Virus record (IMG/VR): IMGVR_UViG_3300027793_000345
Span: 1-20,048 of that record
DNA length: 20,048 nucleotides
From: a virus
Strand: one strand, 5' to 3'
Below, piece after piece: positions 4,559-18,504 of the stretch (position 1 is the first letter of the stretch; every line of letters starts with the position of its first letter). The position numbers were made by a program, and so were the translations under genes. The notes below the pieces were generated by a model. It saw nothing but the letters and a program-made list of their open reading frames with translations. It was not told where the DNA came from and did no database searches.

Positions 4559-7500
4559 CGTTCACGCTCCGGCAGAACGTCCTTGGCGATGTAGTTCATG
4601 GCATCACGCACGCCAAAGACGTTGGGGACAAAGGCAGCGTTGATGCCCGTGCGGACGTGCTGAGAGGTAAAGTCGAGTTCACTGTCAAAGGGCGTGCGGA
4701 ACGCCTCGACCGTGCCGATGGCGTTCTTGGCCCAGTCCAGTGTGGGGTTGCCGGTCAGAATGGCGATAGCACCGTTGTCGGCACCCAGCCCACTGACGCG
4801 GTTGACAGAGAACGGGGCTTTGTAACCGGCAGAAGCAGCGGCGAAGTCCACGCCCATCGGGAGCAAACTGGACCACGTAGCGCGGCCAAAGCCTGCCAGA
4901 GCGAGGTTGCGAGTGCTGAATCGTTCCTCTGCGACCTTGTTTGGGTCGCCACCAAAGAGTGCAGCTGTCGAGACAGCGAAGCCGCCCATGATGATTGCCT
5001 GCATCACGCCAAGGGCACTGCTAATAGCCATGCGGCTGAAAGCCAGCCCAGCGTCACCGCGGGCCATTGTGTCCGCGTGGAAGGCAAGTTGCGTCTCAGC
5101 TGCACGCAGACCGAACTTGCGGAACTGGAGCAGCAATCGGCCCCACATCGTGTCGGCCCACATCGGCAGCGAAGTCGGGTCGGTGATGTTCATCGCACGA
5201 CGGACGTTCCGCTTGATTGCTTGGTCGTAGACGACGCGGGCTTCAAGGTCCGTCCATTCCTGCGTGTTGGGATACCAAGCCTCGCCTGTTTCATCCACGC
5301 GAAGCGCGTGCTTCTTAATCTGATTGGACACACGCTTCCATTCGGCTTGGTCCATGCCAAGTTCGCGGAGTTGTGCAGCCGTGGGCACCTTGTCGTTGAC
5401 GGCCATCTTCACTGTCGCGTCGATGTATCCCGCGCCCGCGACAAGCTCACCAACGTCCTGCGTCCACCGCTGGGCTGAGAACGTCGCACCGAACTGTGCG
5501 CCACGTGCCGACACGTCTTGCAGCTTGGCAAGCAGTTGGTCAATCTTGGCGTTGCTGTCAGCAACCTGCCGGATAGGGCCACTGTTGAACGCCGATGTGC
5601 CGATGCCCAAATCCTGCGTGAGATACGCGAGCAGGTGCAGGCCCTCAACGTCGCCCTTCTTGGCGCGGTTGAGCATGTTCACAAGCTCGGGAATCTGCGC
5701 GAGGATGCTGGTATGCCCAAACTCAGCCGTGGCACGGATGATGTCAGTGGCGTTCACCGCACCCATCGTCGGCGTGGACAGCAGACGCATGTACTGCGCG
5801 TTGATGTTTGCTTGTGCCAGTGCCATTGCCCGGCGTGATGACAGGCTCTTGGCTTCCATCGTGGGAATGCCCATCATCTTCTTCGCAGCCCACTCGATGC
5901 GTTGCACGTTGGCTGAGTCACGCACGCCGTTTTCGGCGTAGACCTCGTTGATGCGGGCAACCATCTCTTGCAGGTTGCCAAAGCCTTCGCGACCAGTGCG
6001 GGCAGACCACACGCGCGAGACTTCCGCCATAGCAGCCGCACCAATCAGGTTGCTGGCTTCGCTGGCGAACAGGCGGCGAGGGTCGTTGTCAAGCCGGTCC
6101 TCGATGCTGTAGGTCGTGCCGTCAGCAAACGTGTGGACGTAGGTTTCGTCCAGCGGGGCGCGGGTGCGAAGCGACGTGGTTGCCGCTTGCTCGTCGTCAG
6201 CAAGCACGCGGGCCGCAAGGCTCTTGACTTCTTCGGGTGTAGCGTCCGGGAAGACTTCACGCACGAGGCGGCGGAACTCGTCACGCGACATGCCTACACC
6301 GCCAATGGCGTTGTTGAGGTCGTTCTGCGTGCCACCATTCTCGATGATTCGCTTGGCGATGAGGTTGGCGAGTTTGCGACCACGCTGGGGATTGGCCTTC
6401 TGTGCATCCGTCAAGTCAAGGTCGCGATAGACGGCTTCCGTCCACGCTTCCTCAAGACGGTTGCGCCACTCGCTGCCGTAGCGAGCTTTGAAGTCCACAA
6501 TGTCTTGGTCGATGATGGGGCGGTTGTACGAGCGGGGCACGCGGTAGGGCTTGGCCTTGGTAGCCTCTGCCACTTCCTTCGCGCGCGGTACGTTGTGGGC
6601 CACGGCGTAGTCAAGCAGGTCGCGGTAGGACTTATTGACGGACTCGGCAGCCTCACGCAGAATCTTCGTCTTCGGCGAGTTGTCGATTGCGCCACGGCTA
6701 AAGCGGCGAATCTCCTTGACGACGGCCTCACCGAACTGCACGAAGGACACAGGCTTCTCGCCATCGGCGTTTGCCTGCTTTACGTATGCGTCGTACTTGG
6801 TCGTCAGCGTGACTTCGTGCGGGGTCGTGTACGCGCGAACCGCGTCTTCAACTTGTGACACCGCACCGTACTGGGCGTACCCGTCAGCCTTCGGCACCAC
6901 GTCGGTGTTGAGCATGTTGCCCAGCAGACGCACTTCCGCAACGTCCTCACGACCAACCATAGCGGCGTTGCTGAATCGCATCGCACCAAGGTCCACGTTC
7001 TTGAGCGGACCAGCACGCATGAATGCGGGCAGGGGGATGTTCGAGATGCGAGAGTCGGTGATGTTGTGCAGGTAGATGCCTGCGTTCACGTCCTTGTTGG
7101 CGAACAGCGGGTTGCCGCCTGGCTGCTGGGCAGTGCCGGGGGACGTGCTACCCGGACGCATTGCCTGGGTCGTTGCTGCGTCGAGGAAAGCCTTTGGCGG
7201 AAGCGGCATGGTTGCCTCTTTGTCGCCGTATCGGAGTTCAACAAACGGGTCAAATCGAATCTCAACCGGCTTGTCGCTTGTGCCGCCCTTTCGCTTCTTG
7301 GCAAACGCTTTGATCCTGTCGCGAACCTTGATTCCATGCTCACGAACAGTTTGCTCGTCCGCACCTGTGACTTCCATAAGCCACTTGGCGTAGTCTGCAT
7401 CACGCTTGCTCGGGTTCTTTTGAGCAAGGATGTAGCCCGCACGGTCGATGTCGCTGGCAAAGTTGATCGTGAATTTGTTCTCACCAACTGAGTAGCGCGG

Positions 7501-8751
7501 CGCAGCCTTTGACAGCTCTTCCGGTAGCTTTGGTAGCGTCGCGGTGTCAATGACAACCTTTTGGCGTGTAGCTGGCTGTGTTGGTGATTGCGATGTTGCT
7601 GTAGTCGTCGGGGCGGCAGCCGGTACGGTGGTAGGCTGCGAGGTCGATGTGGCCGCTGGTTGTGAATCCACTGCCGGTGCAACTACAACCGGACGCTCGG
7701 TGACAACACGCGGCTGGATGACGGGTGTTTCGTACACGCCGGTGAGTCCAACGACGGTTTCATCAAAGTCCTTTACAGCCTTCTCGCCTGTCACGCCGCC
7801 GTAGACCTTGAGGCCCTTGTCGGTGAGTGGCGTGCCAGCAGCCGTGGCAATGGCAACGTCAGCCCGTTGCACCATTCGCTGTCCGACCTCTTGCATAGCC
7901 GTGTCGATAGTGGTCGCGCGCGGCAAAGCAGCGAACGTGCCGGGAATGAGCGACGACAACGCGAACGACGCAAACACTGCGCCGTCTTCCGCGTCGCTAT
8001 CCATCGCAGTGAACGTACCGGCAGTGATGCCCGTGGCCGCACCGACAGTGCCGAAGCGACGCAGGCGGCTGGCATCGGCCAGAGCAGAAGCACTGCCGCC
8101 AAACACAAAGTCAGACGCGATGTTGCCAGCAATCTCGTAACCGCTGATGCGTGAGTCTTCGCTTGCACGCAGAGCCTCACCAGCGGCGGTGGGCACGGCG
8201 TTGATGAGTCCGGCGCGTGCGGCCATGCCCATACGTGAAGCAAAGAAGCCAGCACGACCAGCCGTGGCAGCAGTGCCGAATCCGCCCGTGGCAAGCATTG
8301 CCCCGATGCTCACGGGGTCGAGAATCTGTGCGCCGACGTTTGCGGCAGCACCGCCCCAACCAGCACCTTCCAGGCGACGACGGCGTTCCGTCTTTGCTCG
8401 CAGTTCCGATGTGAGCAACGCGAGTTCAAACTCACTGTTGGCGTTCGGCAGAGCATCCCAAAGGTCAGGGTCGATGCCCTGTGTAGATTGCTCCAGACGC
8501 TCGCGAGTCCACTGCAAAGGCTCGCCATTGGCAGTCGGGTCGAACATGCCATACGCGAACTTGCGAGCCTTGGCAGCAAGGGCACCTGTGGGGCCACTTT
8601 CCAGCAGCGCAGACGACAACACGTTGGTGTCGAACGCGGTCAGTAGCGACGCTACGCCGCCATCTTCCTGCGCGCCGACAGACTGAATCGACGTGATTGC
8701 TTGAGGCTGTGCTGTCGATTCAAACGGCTGGATGTTGGATATGCGGCTCAT
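4555..8751 (-). CDS. Giant internal virion protein, T7 gp16-like
   Basis: At 1398 aa it is near T7 gp16 (1318 aa), and it lies after gp14- and gp15-like genes, as in T7. Such proteins sit in the core inside the capsid and are ejected to form a channel across the cell envelope. N-terminal part (1-340): Ala/Gly-rich with hydrophobic stretches. Residues about 343-400 form a Thr/Pro/Ala/Gln-rich linker. About 404-487 is a compact module (with FASDIDRAGYILAQKNPSKR at 431-450) that I recall as recurring in large phage proteins. The rest is long and helical, with hydrophobic segments near 1241-1266. I do not see the lytic transglycosylase motif that T7 gp16 has at its N-terminus. It overlaps its neighbours by ATGA at both ends. 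Confidence 0.8.
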   Translation of the reverse strand: MSRISNIQPFESTAQPQAITSIQSVGAQEDGGVASLLTAFDTNVLSSALLESGPTGALAAKARKFAYGMFDPTANGEPLQWTRERLEQSTQGIDPDLWDALPNANSEFELALLTSELRAKTERRRRLEGAGWGGAAANVGAQILDPVSIGAMLATGGFGTAATAGRAGFFASRMGMAARAGLINAVPTAAGEALRASEDSRISGYEIAGNIASDFVFGGSASALADASRLRRFGTVGAATGITAGTFTAMDSDAEDGAVFASFALSSLIPGTFAALPRATTIDTAMQEVGQRMVQRADVAIATAAGTPLTDKGLKVYGGVTGEKAVKDFDETVVGLTGVYETPVIQPRVVTERPVVVAPAVDSQPAATSTSQPTTVPAAAPTTTATSQSPTQPATRQKVVIDTATLPKLPEELSKAAPRYSVGENKFTINFASDIDRAGYILAQKNPSKRDADYAKWLMEVTGADEQTVREHGIKVRDRIKAFAKKRKGGTSDKPVEIRFDPFVELRYGDKEATMPLPPKAFLDAATTQAMRPGSTSPGTAQQPGGNPLFANKDVNAGIYLHNITDSRISNIPLPAFMRAGPLKNVDLGAMRFSNAAMVGREDVAEVRLLGNMLNTDVVPKADGYAQYGAVSQVEDAVRAYTTPHEVTLTTKYDAYVKQANADGEKPVSFVQFGEAVVKEIRRFSRGAIDNSPKTKILREAAESVNKSYRDLLDYAVAHNVPRAKEVAEATKAKPYRVPRSYNRPIIDQDIVDFKARYGSEWRNRLEEAWTEAVYRDLDLTDAQKANPQRGRKLANLIAKRIIENGGTQNDLNNAIGGVGMSRDEFRRLVREVFPDATPEEVKSLAARVLADDEQAATTSLRTRAPLDETYVHTFADGTTYSIEDRLDNDPRRLFASEASNLIGAAAMAEVSRVWSARTGREGFGNLQEMVARINEVYAENGVRDSANVQRIEWAAKKMMGIPTMEAKSLSSRRAMALAQANINAQYMRLLSTPTMGAVNATDIIRATAEFGHTSILAQIPELVNMLNRAKKGDVEGLHLLAYLTQDLGIGTSAFNSGPIRQVADSNAKIDQLLAKLQDVSARGAQFGATFSAQRWTQDVGELVAGAGYIDATVKMAVNDKVPTAAQLRELGMDQAEWKRVSNQIKKHALRVDETGEAWYPNTQEWTDLEARVVYDQAIKRNVRRAMNITDPTSLPMWADTMWGRLLLQFRKFGLRAAETQLAFHADTMARGDAGLAFSRMAISSALGVMQAIIMGGFAVSTAALFGGDPNKVAEERFSTRNLALAGFGRATWSSLLPMGVDFAAASAGYKAPFSVNRVSGLGADNGAIAILTGNPTLDWAKNAIGTVEAFRTPFDSELDFTSQHVRTGINAAFVPNVFGVRDAMNYIAKDVLPERER

Positions 8752-11018: not shown

Positions 11019-11581
11019 TGTGAGAGTTGGTCAATGCCGGTGCCAAGGGCACTACCGGCTTGGAAGCCTTGCAGCCCGCCCATGATGGCATCGAGCGGTC
11101 CGAACCGCTGCTGGCTGCGGAGTTGTGCAATCTGCTGGTCGAACTGCGCGCGACGGGTACGCAGGCGCGTGCGTTCGTTGATGTTGATGATTTGCTGGTC
11201 CGTCGATGCGTTGACGGCGTTGGTGATAAGCAGGTCGTCAATACTGCCACTGGACGGCAAGCCGCGTTCAGCTGCGGATGCCAGCGTGCCGCCAGCAATC
11301 GCACGGAAGCGTTTGGTGGCTTGCAGACGTTCCACGGTGGAAGCGTCCACGATACTTTGGTAGTCGATGCCTGCGGCGTTGGCGGCGTTGTTGGCGGTCG
11401 TGCGTAGGGCACGGTTGGTGCCGATTGCACCAAGCAGGGCAAGCCCCGCGCCAACACCTGCACCCACAGGACCAAGCGTGCTGGCAAGGCTACCAGATGC
11501 GGCAGCCGATGCCCCAAAGCCCATACTGGCCGATGCCGCCGACTGCCCGGCCATGATGCTCAGTGTCGAGAACTGGCTCAT
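11015..11581 (-). CDS. Internal virion protein, T7 gp14-like
   Basis: 188 aa, close to T7 gp14 (196 aa), in the position between gp12 and gp15. Residues about 9-57 are a small-residue hydrophobic stretch (Ala, Gly, Ser, Leu; GPVGAGVGAGLALLGAIG at its end) that could enter a membrane, as expected for the ejected protein that sits in the outer membrane. The rest is helical: DASTVERLQATKRFRAIAGG (78-97) and a charged segment INERTRLRTRRAQFDQQIAQL (about 133-153), typical for this family. It starts MSQF at 11581, overlapping the gp12-like stop by ATGA. No enzyme motif. Confidence 0.76.
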   Translation of the reverse strand: MSQFSTLSIMAGQSAASASMGFGASAAASGSLASTLGPVGAGVGAGLALLGAIGTNRALRTTANNAANAAGIDYQSIVDASTVERLQATKRFRAIAGGTLASAAERGLPSSGSIDDLLITNAVNASTDQQIININERTRLRTRRAQFDQQIAQLRSQQRFGPLDAIMGGLQGFQAGSALGTGIDQLSQ

Positions 11582-14484
11582 TGCGTGGCACTCCCGCGAA
11601 TACTGCTCGGCATGGTCGTGAACTCAACAGCCTGGATGCTGACGGGGTACGCACTGCCGCTGCTCAGGAACACCTTGCAGTCGCCAGCGGGACCGATCTG
11701 GTAGACTCGCCACGTCCGCTCCGTTGCGAGATACCCGCTCGGGTCAACGAACGATTGCGTCAACTCTCGGTTCACGTACTTGCGACGCACAGTGAAGTCG
11801 CCGTTACGACGGGTGCGGATGCCCATGCTGGCGATGACAGGCCGCGAAGTCAATGACGCAAGCCCGCCCGTGTAGCGCACGAACGGCTCACTCAGCGTGA
11901 TGTCAAGGTTGTACGAACGGCCAAGCATCAAAGCACTTGCCGAGTAGTTGCCAGCCGCACTGACAGTCGCACCACCACCACCGCTGGTCACGGCCAAAGC
12001 TGCGCCCGTTGACAGGATGACGGAATTGATGGTCGCGTCCGTGAAGGTTGTTCCATACTGATCTCCGAGCGTCCACGTCGTCGTGCCTGCCGAGAACGAT
12101 CCAAGCAGGGACACACGGCGGTCAAGTCGCACGGGCAACGCGGCGGCGGCAGACCCAAACTCTTGGGCAACCGCGTCGGGTTCGATGCGAAGCACTTCAA
12201 GGAAATACTGGCCGCTGGTGGCGGTGATAGCGAACGTCGTGGGGTTGCGAGTGACGCGCTCCACCAGCATCCAAACTTCGTTGCGAAGTGAGACTGCATC
12301 GCAGATGCGGTAGTTGAGGTTAAAGATGTACTTCGTCCACGCACTCTGAATGCGCTCGGTGCCTTGATAGCCAGAGCGATAGGCGTAGCACAGGTAAGCA
12401 TCACGCACAAACACGCCAAGCCAGCCTTCGCTGGGGATGGCGATGAGGCGGATGATGTCAGATTCGACAAGACTGGGGACATGGGCGGTGATGTCTTCGG
12501 CGTAGGACTGTGCGAATGTGTCGTCGTACACGTACTCGCGAACCTGTGCGGTCTGCCGCACGTTGGCAGCAGCACCGGCAAGGCGGTTGTTGGCGTAGTA
12601 CACACGCTCGTCCATTGCCACGGGGTCACACTTGACGGCAGAACCACGGGGGCCACGGGTGACGGTGGCTGCACTGGGCGTGAAAGCCTCGCCGCCAACC
12701 TCGTACACCTGCTCTGGGCTAGTAAGCACTAACAACTTCTCACGGTACGCAAAGAGCGAATAGACCGTGGGCAGTTGGTCGCCTGAAAGTTCGATGCTGA
12801 TGCGGTCGCTGTCAACAGTCTGGTCTTCTGCCACGCGGTAGAAGTTGAACAGGTTGCTGGTTTCGCTCGCCACCACCCATCGGCCCATGCCAAACACGAG
12901 GCGGTTCTTGTAGAGGGCAGCGTCACCAATGAACTCCCCATCCTTGAAGGGCTGGGGCACGTCGTTGGTTTCTTCGTCACCAGCTAGACGGTCATCCCAG
13001 TCGATCTGGTCGATGGTGAACGTCAGCGGGCTGGTGTTGGTCCGCACCATCGCCACGGGCATCTTGGCAGGATCGAGCGTGTAGCGAGGCTCTGCGGGGC
13101 CAGGGACGCGACGCCAGCGGTCAACCACGTCCACACGAACCGCACCACTACCACCGCCGCCAGCCGTGATGGTGTAATCACTGCTGCTGGCAGAGAACGG
13201 ACGGGTGTTCACTGTCAAGTCGCCAGAACTGCCAGCCACGCCCGCCGCTGTCGGGGGCAAGGGCGGGTAGATGATGGCATCGTTGCCCTTCCACGGGCCT
13301 GTAATCTGGAACGCACCGTTGGTGTAGAGACTGGGCACCCATGCGACAAGGACAGCGTTCTCGCCCAGCGAACGGAACTCCTGCTGGATGCGGGCGGCAA
13401 TGTCGCTCATGCTGTCGTATCCGCCGATCAACGCGGCAAAGCTCACGCTGATTTCGTATTCCTTGCCAGCACCGTTGATAACCACATCGCCCGTGGCCGC
13501 AAGCGCGCAAGAAGTGCCGGGGCGATAGGTGGGGCCAGTGGTTGCATCGACCACGGTGATTTGGTCGTTGCTGTCACGGCTCACGAGCGTCACAAAGCCT
13601 GTAGACGCGCCGCCGCCAAAGGTGACACCCGTTCCGCCCGTGATGCGGATGTGTTCGCCAGCCTCAAACGTGATACCTGTGAATCCACCCACCTTCGTCA
13701 GCGTCCACGTATCGCCGCTCACGTTGGCAGCGGTCACACCCGTGAGGCTCAGGGGCAAGCGACGGAACGCGATACGGAAGCTCTTGGGGTCACTGCCGCT
13801 GCTGTCCCAGTCGCCGTTGAGCTTCCACCAATCGGTGTAGGCGTACAACTGGGCCGAGTACGTCGGGTACGTGCGACCATCATCGCTGACGTACTGGTAG
13901 TAGCCCTTCACGAAGTCCACGCCGTCAGCCTTCGCGCGGTGGTACGTGTTCACCACAGGGGTCTGGGCGGTCATCGCGTCAGCGTCATCCCACGTCGCCG
14001 TCAGTGTGTAGTTGGTGAAGTTGAGCGTGCCGGTCGCCACCTTGGTGTTGATAACGAGCGTGGTGTCGTTGATAGTGACGAGCTTGATGTCCTCTGCGCC
14101 AGCACCGCCAGCGTTGAGGTAGGTCTGCACACCCGTGCCAAGCGTCACCGTGCCAGCCGTGCCGCTGCCACGCTTGAAGACGCGGATAGCGTTGTTCGCA
14201 CCGTTCTTGCCAATGAGGGCGATGTACCGCTCGTTGTCGTCGCGGTCGATGGCGTGCAGGCGGTAAGGGTCGCCAGCCGTCAGGGACAACACGCGGTCAA
14301 GCTCGCTTCCCACCCGCTTGGTCGCGCCGTCGAACGTAGAGAAGTCCACGTTGGCAGCGTCAGACACTTGGTTGGGGAAGCGAGCCATGCCAGGCTGCTG
14401 CGTGATGCCAGCATACAGGATGCTGCTGGGAATCGGTACAGCCTTGTTGTCGTCAGACAGGCCCGTGCGTTGGAATTGGCTCAT
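11578..14484 (-). CDS. Tail tubular protein B (nozzle), T7 gp12-like
   Basis: Forms the distal nozzle of the short tail that closes the DNA channel. The 968-aa, beta-rich protein carries family segments: a start with ILYAGITQQPGMARFPNQV (22-40, compare T7 'GVSQQ' with 'R.P.Q'), ADGVDFVKGYYQYVSDDGRT (187-204), the signature YKNRLVFGMGRWVVASETSN (525-544), DRISIELSGDQLPTVYSLFA (560-579) and LLVLTSPEQVYEVGG (584-598). T7 gp12 is 794 aa; the surplus sits mostly between about 245 and 460, where Gly/Thr/Ser-rich beta segments look inserted. It overlaps the preceding adaptor-like gene and the gp14-like gene by ATGA. A 410-aa frame on the other strand is a shadow. Confidence 0.93.
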   Translation of the reverse strand: MSQFQRTGLSDDNKAVPIPSSILYAGITQQPGMARFPNQVSDAANVDFSTFDGATKRVGSELDRVLSLTAGDPYRLHAIDRDDNERYIALIGKNGANNAIRVFKRGSGTAGTVTLGTGVQTYLNAGGAGAEDIKLVTINDTTLVINTKVATGTLNFTNYTLTATWDDADAMTAQTPVVNTYHRAKADGVDFVKGYYQYVSDDGRTYPTYSAQLYAYTDWWKLNGDWDSSGSDPKSFRIAFRRLPLSLTGVTAANVSGDTWTLTKVGGFTGITFEAGEHIRITGGTGVTFGGGASTGFVTLVSRDSNDQITVVDATTGPTYRPGTSCALAATGDVVINGAGKEYEISVSFAALIGGYDSMSDIAARIQQEFRSLGENAVLVAWVPSLYTNGAFQITGPWKGNDAIIYPPLPPTAAGVAGSSGDLTVNTRPFSASSSDYTITAGGGGSGAVRVDVVDRWRRVPGPAEPRYTLDPAKMPVAMVRTNTSPLTFTIDQIDWDDRLAGDEETNDVPQPFKDGEFIGDAALYKNRLVFGMGRWVVASETSNLFNFYRVAEDQTVDSDRISIELSGDQLPTVYSLFAYREKLLVLTSPEQVYEVGGEAFTPSAATVTRGPRGSAVKCDPVAMDERVYYANNRLAGAAANVRQTAQVREYVYDDTFAQSYAEDITAHVPSLVESDIIRLIAIPSEGWLGVFVRDAYLCYAYRSGYQGTERIQSAWTKYIFNLNYRICDAVSLRNEVWMLVERVTRNPTTFAITATSGQYFLEVLRIEPDAVAQEFGSAAAALPVRLDRRVSLLGSFSAGTTTWTLGDQYGTTFTDATINSVILSTGAALAVTSGGGGATVSAAGNYSASALMLGRSYNLDITLSEPFVRYTGGLASLTSRPVIASMGIRTRRNGDFTVRRKYVNRELTQSFVDPSGYLATERTWRVYQIGPAGDCKVFLSSGSAYPVSIQAVEFTTMPSSIRGSATQ

Positions 14485-15080
14485 TGCTGGGGTTGCTGCG
14501 GGATCATGGGTTCACGACGCGCGCGGGCTGCCGTGCGAGGCGTGACAGGCATGTTCATCATCTCTGCGCGGATGCGGTCGTTGTCACGCTGGCGGGCAAT
14601 GTCAGGGGCCATGATGCGGACGAAGCGGTCAACCGCAAACGCCAACACAAGGGCTTGCTCACTGCCGCTCAGTTCTTCAAACGGAGCCTCACGCCACACG
14701 TCCACGACATACGTGCCAGCGGCGAAGGTATCGCTGCCAGCCTCGTTGTCGTACAGGTGCATGTTGCCGCCAATGGGACGCACGCTGAGTTGACGGTTCT
14801 CGATGCCAGCCTTGCCAGCCACCTTGACCACACGTCCGCCAAGGTGAATCGTGCCGCCGCCAGTGTTGAACGACTGGTTGCGGTCGCAGCGCGTATCAAG
14901 TCCCTCATTACACACCTGACGGGTGAACAGGTCTAGGTAATACTCAGCCTGCCCTTCCGGTGACGAGCCATACGTCTTGCTGGGCCATGAGCCGCTGCTG
15001 TCGAGTGCCGACACACGCGGAATCAGAATTTCCGCGAGCAGCAAGTTCACGCCGTCAATGCGGGAGTGGTTTGATGACAT
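14481..15080 (-). CDS. Second gp11-like tail adaptor protein
   Basis: 199 aa, beginning MSSNHSRIDGVNLLLAEIL. Residues 95-157 resemble the gp11 (tail tubular protein A) core: RQLSVRPIGGNMHLYDNEAG followed by a beta strand TYVVDVWREAPFEELS and a long helix ALVLAFAVDRFVRIM. That matches the pattern 'LYD..., F.G.Y.VDV....PFEELP, helix' of the 207-aa protein encoded at 15974-16597 (NRLYDKDKNTYEFDGEVEVI). Both also share VSALD near the start and a following helix before a Trp/Asn-rich turn. The ring joining portal and nozzle is normally built from one protein; this copy may form a second ring or a modified adaptor (inference). The start has AAGGA eight bases upstream; its end overlaps the gp12-like gene by ATGA. 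Ends in Pro/Gln. Confidence 0.65.
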   Translation of the reverse strand: MSSNHSRIDGVNLLLAEILIPRVSALDSSGSWPSKTYGSSPEGQAEYYLDLFTRQVCNEGLDTRCDRNQSFNTGGGTIHLGGRVVKVAGKAGIENRQLSVRPIGGNMHLYDNEAGSDTFAAGTYVVDVWREAPFEELSGSEQALVLAFAVDRFVRIMAPDIARQRDNDRIRAEMMNMPVTPRTAARARREPMIPQQPQQ

Positions 15081-15089
15081 GGGGTGTCC

Positions 15090-15581
15090 TTACTGCGCGA
15101 TCTGGAACGTGATGGACGGCGTGACAGCCACGGTCGAGGCACTGACAGCCTCAAGCACAACCGACGCGCCGGGCGCGATGATGATGCCGGGTTCATTCAG
15201 GCCAGCCGACAGGTTCAGCTGACCCTCGGGGTAGTTGGTGGGGTACTGCTTCTCAATCAGCACGTCAGCCGCGACGGGGTTCGTGCCCCACGCGCCCGTG
15301 ACGGCGGTGATAGTGAAGTCGGCAGTCTCGGGTGCGTTGGGGTTGATCTTGCGGGGTGTGACCGTGATGGACGTACCACCGCTGCCAGCAGTGCCGGTCA
15401 GACGTGCGATGCGCCACTTGATCTCAGCGGTTGACGCTGCCGAGTGCGTGATGTCCACGTTGCGCAGGCAGAGTTCACGGTTGCTACCAGCCGTGATGAC
15501 CGCCATTGCCTTGACACCGCTGTTGACTGCGGACGTGTTGACAGCAGCGGTCGTTATAACCGCTGACCAATCGCTTGCCAT
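15090..15581 (-). CDS. Beta-rich probable structural protein (163 aa)
   Basis: No known family is recognised. It is rich in Thr, Ala, Ser, Val and Gly, and reads as a series of beta strands: NRELCLRNVDITHSA (34-48), AEIKWRIARLTGTAGSGGTSI (52-72), the long middle with KQYPTNYPEGQLNLSAGLNE (111-130) and a final PGASVVLEAVSASTVAV (137-153). It resembles the protein encoded at 19160-19801 in strand pattern. Placed between two gp11-like genes, it is probably a virion component such as a head or tail decoration or fibre base (inference). The start at 15581 has AGGAG six bases upstream. The 9-base gap after it holds the ribosome binding site of the adaptor-like gene. Confidence 0.65.
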   Translation of the reverse strand: MASDWSAVITTAAVNTSAVNSGVKAMAVITAGSNRELCLRNVDITHSAASTAEIKWRIARLTGTAGSGGTSITVTPRKINPNAPETADFTITAVTGAWGTNPVAADVLIEKQYPTNYPEGQLNLSAGLNEPGIIIAPGASVVLEAVSASTVAVTPSITFQIAQ

Positions 15582-15587
15582 GTGATG

Positions 15588-15592
15588 CTCCT
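15588..15592 (-). promoter_or_regulatory. Ribosome binding site AGGAG fixing the start at 15581
   Basis: On the minus strand AGGAG lies six bases before the ATG at 15581, just after the TAA stop of the proline-rich gene. It makes this the clear start of the 163-aa protein. Confidence 0.7.
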
Positions 15593-15593
15593 G

Positions 15594-15977
15594 TTATCGT
15601 TCTTCGATGGTGATGGGAGGACCAGGATCGAACGTGCCGCCCGCTGCAATGGGGCCGGACGAAGTGGGCGGTGTGCCGTCGATGCTGGACGACACCCAAC
15701 GCCACCGATTGCTTGGCGTGGGGAAACGTTGTGCGAGATTTCGACGTGCGACAGCGCGCTTGCGGTAAATACGCGCAGGCGGGTCGGGTTGCGGGTCAGG
15801 CTGAGGAATGGGTGGGTCTTCGTCACCGGGCAAGTCGCCACCCGGATTGATCTCCTCGCCCGGATTGACAATCTCCTCGTCAGGCGGAGTGGTGTCTTCA
15901 GGCGGGCAACACCCTTGTGCAGACACGCTCCGCGCGCCTTCGAGCAATTGCGCGGGGATGTTGTGCTTGCAGGTCAC
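15594..15977 (-). CDS. Proline-rich, acidic-then-basic small protein (127 aa)
   Basis: No family is recognised. The start is a GTG at 15977 forming a GTGA overlap with the stop of the gp11-like gene. The N-terminus has Cys3, His5 and a Cys-Cys pair (23-24) that could bind metal or form disulfides. Residues about 25-67 are a run of Pro, Asp and Glu with Gly (PDPQPDPPARIYRKR at 60-74 marks its end), then a basic stretch (69-84, RIYRKRAVARRNLAQR). A Trp-containing segment RWRWVSSS (91-98) and a Gly/Pro-rich tail follow. The composition suggests an unstructured bridging protein. Location among tail genes points to a virion role, but nothing proves it. Confidence 0.6.
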   Translation of the reverse strand: MTCKHNIPAQLLEGARSVSAQGCCPPEDTTPPDEEIVNPGEEINPGGDLPGDEDPPIPQPDPQPDPPARIYRKRAVARRNLAQRFPTPSNRWRWVSSSIDGTPPTSSGPIAAGGTFDPGPPITIEER

Positions 15978-16597
15978 TCGCCAAGCTCCCGAATGGTGTA
16001 GTTGTAATTGCGACGCTCACCCAGCACTTGCAGGGCCGTGCTGCTGCCAAGCATGTTGGACTTCTTGATGTCAGACTCAACCTGTTGGGCGCGTGCCCGC
16101 CACTGCCGATGCTTCTGCACGACACGCGGCCAACGCTGTGCGTCACGCCGCTGGTCAAGCATCATCATGGCAGCCTCGCCAATGCACCACCACTTGAGAT
16201 GGATGGGCAGGCATTCGACTGTGAACCGCGTGGTGTAGATGACTTCCACCTCGCCGTCAAACTCGTAGGTGTTCTTGTCCTTGTCGTACAGACGGTTGCC
16301 AAGTTGCACAAGGTTGCGATGGGCGTCTTTGCCGTAGGGGAGAATCTGCGTGACGAGCGGTTCATTGGACGCGCTTAGTGGCACGAACACGAAGTTGCTG
16401 GCGTTAGGTGTGAGCTTCACCTTCCAGTACGTGTTCATCCCGATGTACGTGCTGAATAGGTCGAATGCGTGCGTCTCGATGTTGCGATGGGCGATTGCCT
16501 GACGCGACACACCGTTGGCACCTGCCGGGTCGAGTGCTGACACCGTGGAGTTGTCCACGAGATTCATCACTCGCTGCACCATTTCCAGCATTTCCAT
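15974..16597 (-). CDS. Tail tubular protein A (adaptor), T7 gp11-like
   Basis: Joins the portal to the nozzle protein. The 207-aa protein has a helical start (MVQRVMNLVDNSTVSALD, 6-23), a helix (34-49), the turn-strand region with WKVKLTPNASNFVFVPLSAS (58-77), a segment NRLYDKDKNTYEFDGEVEVI (101-120) and TRFTVECLPIHLKWWCIGEA (123-142), then long basic helices (about 143-180). This order matches T7 gp11, where a 'YDR....F...I.V.....Y.EMPECFRYWI' core is followed by charged helices, and length is similar (196 aa). It starts at a TAATG contact (1-base overlap) with the preceding stop and ends in a GTGA overlap. Unusually it is not next to gp12: two genes and a second gp11-like gene lie between. 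Confidence 0.82.
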   Translation of the reverse strand: MEMLEMVQRVMNLVDNSTVSALDPAGANGVSRQAIAHRNIETHAFDLFSTYIGMNTYWKVKLTPNASNFVFVPLSASNEPLVTQILPYGKDAHRNLVQLGNRLYDKDKNTYEFDGEVEVIYTTRFTVECLPIHLKWWCIGEAAMMMLDQRRDAQRWPRVVQKHRQWRARAQQVESDIKKSNMLGSSTALQVLGERRNYNYTIRELGE

Positions 16598-17159: not shown

Positions 17160-17165
17160 CTCCTT
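17160..17165 (-). promoter_or_regulatory. Strong ribosome binding site AAGGAG overlapping a stop codon
   Basis: On the minus strand the TAA of the esterase gene runs into AAGGAG, and the ATG of the next gene at 17154 follows after CTTCC. It is among the strongest ribosome binding sites in the window and suggests high expression of the 185-aa protein. Confidence 0.7.
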
Positions 17166-18504
17166 AGCGGAATCGACCGCGAACGCGGAAGGTCTGGTTG
17201 GGGTTCATGATTTCGTTCCACATGGTCGCGGCCATGTAGTCCGCGCCACTGCCGACCGTGAACGAGTAGTTGGTCGTTGTCGGGCCGGTCAGGTGGATGT
17301 TGTCGGGTGTCCAGATGGCGGGCGAGTTCAGTGCGAGTTGATACAAGTCAATGAAGATGCTGCCAATCTCCTGCGCGATGCGATACAAGGCACGGCCACG
17401 AGTCTCGTGGTGAGTCGCGGTGTAGCCCGTGCGGAAGTCGTTGACGAGGATGTACGTCGGGCGGGGAAGTGCAGCAGCGTCATACGCAGCGTTCATTGCG
17501 TCGATGATCGCGCGGATGTTGTTGTAGTAGTTGGTCTGGTCGCCAGCGTTGAGTTGCGTCTGTTCGGCAGGGTCCGTACCAATCAGCGGGTTCGTTGAGT
17601 TTTGGCCTGCACCGCACAGCATCTGGTAATTGGGCGCAAACATCGCGTTTGCCAAGAACCACGCTGCATTGGCCGTCGTGCTGTAGGCATTAGCTCCATC
17701 GCCACCCCACTGGCGAACAGTATCGAGTGTGCAATAGCCGCCCACGCCCCACGGCGCGAGACAGAAGCCTGTCGTGCGATTACCAGCCGTGCCTCGGTAG
17801 TACGACACGGGACCAACCAGCATCCGCGTGCCAGTCTCAACAACTGCCGTGCCGCCTTCAATAAGGCCGCAACCGGGGTCGTCGGTTCCCGCACCACAGT
17901 CCATGTCAGTGAACTGCCAGCCGTCCGCGCCCGCCATAGACACGGATGACGGCGTAGCGACGTTGTTGTACGTCGGGCTTGCGTCAGTTCCAGTCTTGCG
18001 ATACGACCGGAATCGAACCGTGGTCACACCTCCAGCGTGGCGATACCACGGGATGCGGGCGATGGTCTGCTGTGATGCCCACGGGTTGCCACGCACCGCG
18101 CTGCCCCAGCCCGTCAGGAACTGCTGCATGTACGGAGACGCGCTCAATGTCGGAGCATCGCCGCTGAACGGATAGTCCAGAATCTGCGTCGGTGCAATGT
18201 CAGCAATCGCCGCACTGTTGGCTTGGTCAGGCCGGAGAATCGCGCGGGCGGCAGCGAAGTTGGTGTTGGAGAAACCACCCGATGCCCAGAACGCAGAGCC
18301 GAGGCTTGCCGCGCGGCACAGGATGCCCGACCACGGCACATCCCATGTGCGGATGATGCCATGCCACACGGGGCAGTTGGACGCATCCAGTGCTGTGCGT
18401 GAGTCGATGCCAATGCCCAACCGCACGTCGCACGCGGTCGATGCCAGCGCAGCACGAAGCCCCGCCGTGTTGTACGACGTTGGCACTTGAAGTCGGTATG
18501 ACAT
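17164..18504 (-). CDS. SGNH/GDSL-type hydrolase (esterase-like), probable virion protein
   Basis: A 446-aa protein with the pattern of an SGNH esterase. Block I is LGIGIDSRTALD (29-40), with Ser35 as likely nucleophile in an 'x-D-S' motif. Block III candidate is GAGQNS (298-303), with Gly300 and Asn302. Block V is PDNIHLTG (400-407), with Asp401 and His404 as the catalytic Asp-x-x-His. Between them lie a beta-rich insert and ALPRPTYILVNDFRTGY (345-361), a typical core strand. The family removes acyl, often acetyl, groups from sugars or other esters. Phage versions often modify surface polysaccharide at attachment (family knowledge); that role here is inference. The start follows the preceding TAA directly (TAAATG). 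No signal peptide is seen. Confidence 0.75.
   Translation of the reverse strand: MSYRLQVPTSYNTAGLRAALASTACDVRLGIGIDSRTALDASNCPVWHGIIRTWDVPWSGILCRAASLGSAFWASGGFSNTNFAAARAILRPDQANSAAIADIAPTQILDYPFSGDAPTLSASPYMQQFLTGWGSAVRGNPWASQQTIARIPWYRHAGGVTTVRFRSYRKTGTDASPTYNNVATPSSVSMAGADGWQFTDMDCGAGTDDPGCGLIEGGTAVVETGTRMLVGPVSYYRGTAGNRTTGFCLAPWGVGGYCTLDTVRQWGGDGANAYSTTANAAWFLANAMFAPNYQMLCGAGQNSTNPLIGTDPAEQTQLNAGDQTNYYNNIRAIIDAMNAAYDAAALPRPTYILVNDFRTGYTATHHETRGRALYRIAQEIGSIFIDLYQLALNSPAIWTPDNIHLTGPTTTNYSFTVGSGADYMAATMWNEIMNPNQTFRVRGRFR

Follow-up and report, generated by a model that had tools for sequence, protein, structure and literature searches.

Two predicted gp11-type adaptors encoded in one tail module of a T7-type podovirus

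In a T7-type neck, one adaptor ring lets the portal meet the six-fold nozzle. More than one small ring protein can stack from portal to tail in siphophages and myophages (adaptor with stopper or head-completion rings) and in SU10-type and P22-type necks; these rings are of different families, whereas both copies considered here are gp11-type. The locus described below raises the question of whether one T7-type tail module can encode two gp11 adaptors and, if so, how they would share the neck.

The sequence analysed (the window), a virus record of 20,048 bases, covers part of a T7-type podovirus genome and is read on the minus strand. In transcription order it begins with a gene for a protein of 213 aa; small lysis-like genes, a fibre-like gene of 446 aa and p185 come next, followed by A207, the proline-rich P127, p163, B199 and the nozzle gene (968 aa). 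Beyond the nozzle gene come three genes for proteins resembling internal virion proteins (188, 756 and 1,398 aa), and a gene of 108 aa and the large terminase complete the order. On another contig of the same species (L005), portal-, scaffold- and capsid-like genes were recognized by eye further upstream. Neighbouring genes share one to four bases at p185/A207, A207/P127 and B199/nozzle, as would be the case in a single translated unit.

The two candidate adaptor genes, both on the minus strand, were found where the original prediction had placed them: A207 (copy A, 207 aa, predicted to face the portal) at 15974-16597 and B199 (copy B, 199 aa, predicted to face the nozzle) at 14481-15080. Between them lie P127 (15594-15977, minus strand), which shares 4 bases with the end of A207, and the probably beta-rich p163 (15090-15581, minus strand). 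The nozzle gene (11578-14484, minus strand) encodes a protein of the T7 gp12 type (PF25675 Phage_nozzle, 8.4e-74; phrog_457, 6.5e-82).

Copy A was readily assigned. A207 matched PF17212 Tube (5.2e-9, 36.7 bits for a cut-off of 22.3), phrog_446 (6e-14) and independent gp11 profiles (98%, P 2.6e-13). Its best PDB sequence match by profile was the adaptor gp22 of cyanophage P-SCSP1u (PDB 8i4m; 9.4e-5). The same adaptor came first in the fold search, where the top 19 PDB matches were all gp11-type adaptors, and the predicted order of elements fits a helix bundle with an inserted beta domain; both results come from a poor model (pLDDT 40). The P-SCSP1u adaptor is a single copy present 12 times per virion (PMC10575957), compared with two genes in the window. 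A207 does not directly precede the nozzle gene, three genes intervening in the window and one at the orthologous position in contig L023; such adjacency is usual for the gp11 family and stands outside its definition by fold or sequence.

Copy B required more sensitive comparisons. B199 matched phrog_446 weakly (0.001); its orthologues matched that family somewhat better (1.4e-4 and 3.1e-5). The Pfam search reported no PF17212 match for it, no match was obtained in annotated phages, and a B profile built from three sequences retrieved no adaptor from the PDB sequences. These negative results would suit a protein that is no relative of gp11 and resembles it by chance or by general convergence of helical adaptors. 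Nevertheless, a profile of gp11 from eight phages aligned with the three-row B profile over 144 columns, from the start to residue 158 (94.5%, P 7.8e-8). The score of 46.0 was far above the maximum of 12.8 from 200 column shuffles of B, and no other window protein exceeded 11.1 against the gp11 profile. An HMM built only from contigs with a single gp11 picked out exactly A207 (1.8e-15) and B199 (2.6e-5, both for Z = 100,000) in the window, the next window protein scoring 2600.

The fold search pointed the same way. All of the top 17 PDB matches of the B199 AlphaFold model, which is of moderate confidence (pLDDT 60.5), were gp11 adaptors (E 5.6e-5 to 1.6e-3, TM about 0.36-0.50), from T7, KP32, PhiM1, HRP29, Kp7, Kp9, E1004 and P-SCSP1u, and the top matches in a viral fold library were tail tubular protein A or tail adaptors. 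Moreover, the best match of the window's copy B (W_B) outside its own lineage was L023_2 (E 7e-5), an unmistakable gp11 (PF17212, 6.5e-25) in the same gene position as B199. That position, directly before the nozzle gene and here overlapping its start by 4 bases, is also held by the single gp11 of eight reference phages, where it directly precedes gp12. Chance likeness is contradicted by the fold matches, the shuffles and L023_2, and we regard it as very improbable. A207 and B199 thus almost certainly both belong to the gp11 family.

The likeness of A and B to each other had been noticed by eye from short common words, which alone are insufficient to carry homology. The word VSALD does occur in both proteins (residues 19-23 of A and 23-27 of B). 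Compared as single sequences, A and B remained at chance level (BLASTP E = 0.75), and two-row profiles aligned over only 24 columns; adding orthologues resolved this. With three orthologues on each side, the eye-made alignment proved right, placing VSALD on VSALD, LYD on LYD and then CLP on FEEL over 143 columns (P = 0.005), with a score of 21.6 for a maximum of 11.3 in 200 column shuffles.

Altogether, family searches, profile comparison, predicted fold and comparative genomics agree with the original prediction of two gp11-family genes in one tail module: neither model has an unrelated fold, and both proteins fall in the gp11 family by profile search. These profiles and models demonstrate a module encoding two predicted paralogous adaptors of the T7 gp11 type. 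The single-copy counterpart, T7 gp11 or KP32 tail tubular protein A (PF17212, phrog_446; PDB 7ey7, 6r21, 5mu4), shares with the window copies the predicted order of helix - helix - beta domain - helix, a similar length of about 200 aa, a place directly before the nozzle gene like that of B199, and motifs around VN.L and LYD and around the segment that follows the beta domain. It differs in being one gene where two diverged copies are found here, and B lacks its C-terminal embracing helix and has a longer helix 1-helix 2 loop.

The occurrence of the pair was then assessed in related contigs. Nozzle alignments that included distant phages worked for this purpose, while two-row viral scans gave only the same two species. 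In L007 the order A, proline-rich, beta, B and nozzle is the same as in the window, with identities of 77% (A), 68% (P127), 85% (p163) and 66% (B). It is also unchanged in the distant L124, at identities of 36% (A), 36% (P127), 29% (p163), 36% (B) and 47% (nozzle). The A copies and the B copies of the window, L007 and L124 form two clades, each with 100% support, and the pair, being common to all three, predates 53% nozzle divergence. In L023 two gp11 genes with a mutual identity of 41% (E 7e-23) stand in tandem immediately before the nozzle gene. In L106 one frame of 538 aa (6181-7794), just before the nozzle gene, contains two gp11 domains (residues 6-179 and 348-530) joined by a linker of about 170 residues.

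Elsewhere a single gene is the rule. A gp11 was detectable next to the nozzle gene in 83 other contigs or phages; each has one, and even a relaxed search of them found no second convincing gp11. In annotated phages, 2,375 records with a gp11 match contained 2,379 places, so that at most four records can hold a second place at that sensitivity. Among Planctomycetota genomes, 6 of 392 had a gp11 match, in one place each. No duplicated gp11 or two-adaptor neck is described in the open-access literature that was searched.

L106 branches elsewhere in the tree (98/89), which points to a separate duplication; gp11 doubling therefore probably took place two or more times. For L023 and the window lineage, AU tests of one duplication or two gave p 0.34 to 0.47. 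The window's copy A (W_A) matches L023_1 (E 2.7e-12) more closely than it does L023_2 (7e-6), and together with the match of W_B to L023_2 this would suit orthology of the copies in gene order. Between the window and L007, dN/dS was 0.17 for A, 0.19 for B, 0.20 for P127, 0.10 for p163 and 0.18 for the nozzle gene; synonymous sites were partly saturated. Purifying selection acts on both window copies, and neither is decaying. A decaying duplicate is ruled out by these ratios and by conservation, and an assembly artefact by the presence of the pair in several contigs from several metagenomes.

How the copies have diverged was judged against the known contacts of single adaptors. The C-terminal helix of T7 gp11 embraces the portal, and its acidic residues E26, D35 and D39, in the helix 1-helix 2 loop, touch the gp12 nozzle (PMC6702177). 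In P-SCSP1u gp22, portal contacts are made by H176, S177 and M178 and nozzle contacts by E20 and N24 (PMC10575957). In a common alignment, the 79 single-copy gp11s that extend over both ends all hold N, S or T in the S177 column. Residues 180-207 of A207 (SNML onward; 15977-16060, minus strand) align with this portal-contacting C-terminus (contacts from PMC10575957 and PMC6702177), and W_A, L007_A and L023_1 keep N-x-L in the S177 region; the L124_A C-terminus aligns only approximately. The segment is absent from W_B, L007_B, L124_B and L023_2, which have proline- and glutamine-rich tails instead. The C-terminal embracing segment varies among adaptor types (PMC6702177); therefore it was not taken as defining for the gp11 family. 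Complementary losses in the two L106 domains were considered and downgraded, the end of domain 1 being ambiguous.

On the nozzle side, the B copies are most conserved in an insert in the helix 1-helix 2 loop, at residues 28-46 of B199 (SSGSWPSKTYGSSPEGQAE; 14943-14999, minus strand). Twelve of 20 columns are identical in the window, L007 and L124, and the consensus of the window-lineage B copies, S.G.WPSKTY..S..G.AE, includes eight residues inserted relative to gp11 in this nozzle-facing loop. The nozzle-face GE motif is found in 64 of the 79 single copies and in L023_2, and in none of the A copies. However, it is also absent from 5 of 9 single-copy relatives in A's part of the tree. Its loss was thus downgraded as proof that A has left the nozzle, and this half of the A/B division is weak and was given little weight. 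The strongest statement that the alignments allow is that this lineage has two conserved, putative gp11-type adaptors, of which only A would keep the portal grip.

Two different adaptor proteins probably make up the tail neck and split its work between them. The original prediction had inferred a second ring or a changed tail neck, and this gains weight from the conservation of both copies in diverged phages and from the portal-gripping C-terminus kept only by A copies. We favour an explanation in which A and B would divide two jobs done elsewhere by one gp11 ring. The C-terminal segment of copy A would hug the portal clip and stem, so that A forms a portal-facing ring. Copy B, devoid of the portal segment and provided here with the conserved nozzle-loop insert, would form a second tier bearing the hexameric nozzle. 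The axial order would then be portal - A - B - nozzle, parallel to gene order. This arrangement accounts most simply for the direction of loss and for the gene order, and it is supported by the position of B's conserved stretch in the nozzle-contacting loop and by the overlap of the B and nozzle genes. A division into portal-facing and nozzle-facing copies is reasonably probable; stacking in tiers rather than in one mixed ring is more tentative, somewhat short of an even chance, and the explanation as a whole comes close to one. A point against two tiers is that T7 gp11 assembles into its ring exclusively on the portal (PMC6702177), which leaves the assembly of B unexplained.

The main and serious rival is a single ring of 12 in which A and B alternate, six of each, the two genes fixing two conformations for the six-fold nozzle. 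It draws on structures: T7 gp11 subunits adopt two alternating conformations where they face gp12 (PMC6702177), and one P-SCSP1u nozzle contacts two adaptors through different interfaces (PMC10575957). The gp11-gp11 fusion of L106 looks as six double subunits would be expected to look, although its linker is long for neighbours in one ring, and one copy per pair with a portal-gripping tail also fits gripping by half of the subunits. Yet A and B alike should retain both faces if each subunit reaches from portal to nozzle, and the B copies lose the portal side; we consider the mixed ring possible, on the doubtful side. Alternatively, one copy could be the neck adaptor and the other a separate fibre-docking or collar protein using the gp11 beta domain. 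That domain is a fibre dock (PMC6702177), relatives gain extra domains at this gene position (an F5/8C domain fused to gp11 in L029, an RCC1 propeller gene in L111), and the fibre-like 446-aa gene lies just upstream in the window. B's conserved insert, however, is in the nozzle-facing loop, outside the beta domain, and the predicted helix bundle is kept in both copies, making this role unlikely.

In favouring two tiers of divided function, we note that a broader proposition covers both arrangements. It is fairly probable that T7-type phages have, at least two times, split the single adaptor ring into two specialised gp11s (or a gp11-gp11 fusion), which would fix the passage from 12-fold portal to 6-fold nozzle in sequence, as stacked tiers or as a mixed 6+6 ring. 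A duplicated ring gene that was long kept and has diverged at the parts touching portal and nozzle constitutes a natural experiment on the role of each surface. Single copies, tandem pair and fusion are ready constructs for testing how the symmetry mismatch is solved.

P127 and p163 had no family match in Pfam or PHROG, and p163 had no match in annotated phages. They accompany the adaptor pair, kept in place, in the species of the window, L007 and L124. Since both travel with the pair in L007 and L124, a part in the neck is possible, and they would probably be lineage-specific neck or collar decoration. In L023 the two gp11 genes adjoin, without P127 and p163 between them; these proteins are thus not obligatory for a double adaptor.

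Other variation was observed around the adaptor gene. In L029 (4758-6365) gp11 carries a fused C-terminal region that includes an F5/8 type C domain (PF00754, 8.4e-14), possibly giving a sugar-binding adaptor. In L123 (7076-8809) the gp11 domain ends a frame of 578 aa, about 375 residues preceding it. L111 (7310-8806) carries an RCC1-type beta-propeller gene (PF00415) between gp11 and nozzle; L110 and L111 are the nozzle relatives from bacterial assemblies, both in Planctomycetota MAGs. The single gp11 of L036, L052, L084, L110, L121, L125 and L126 is 270-311 aa long, with an insertion in the middle (beta, fibre-dock) part.

Within the window, the 446-aa fibre-like protein (17164-18504) shows SGNH-hydrolase-like motifs by eye but matched neither Pfam nor PHROG; in L007 its place is taken by another protein of similar size. 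Finally, the tail genes of L003 and L006 are 99-100% identical to those of the window up to the nozzle gene. From about 11,000 to 8,700, identity is 92% for p188, 83% for p756 over half its length and 30% for p1398, as though the ejection genes had been swapped behind an almost identical neck.
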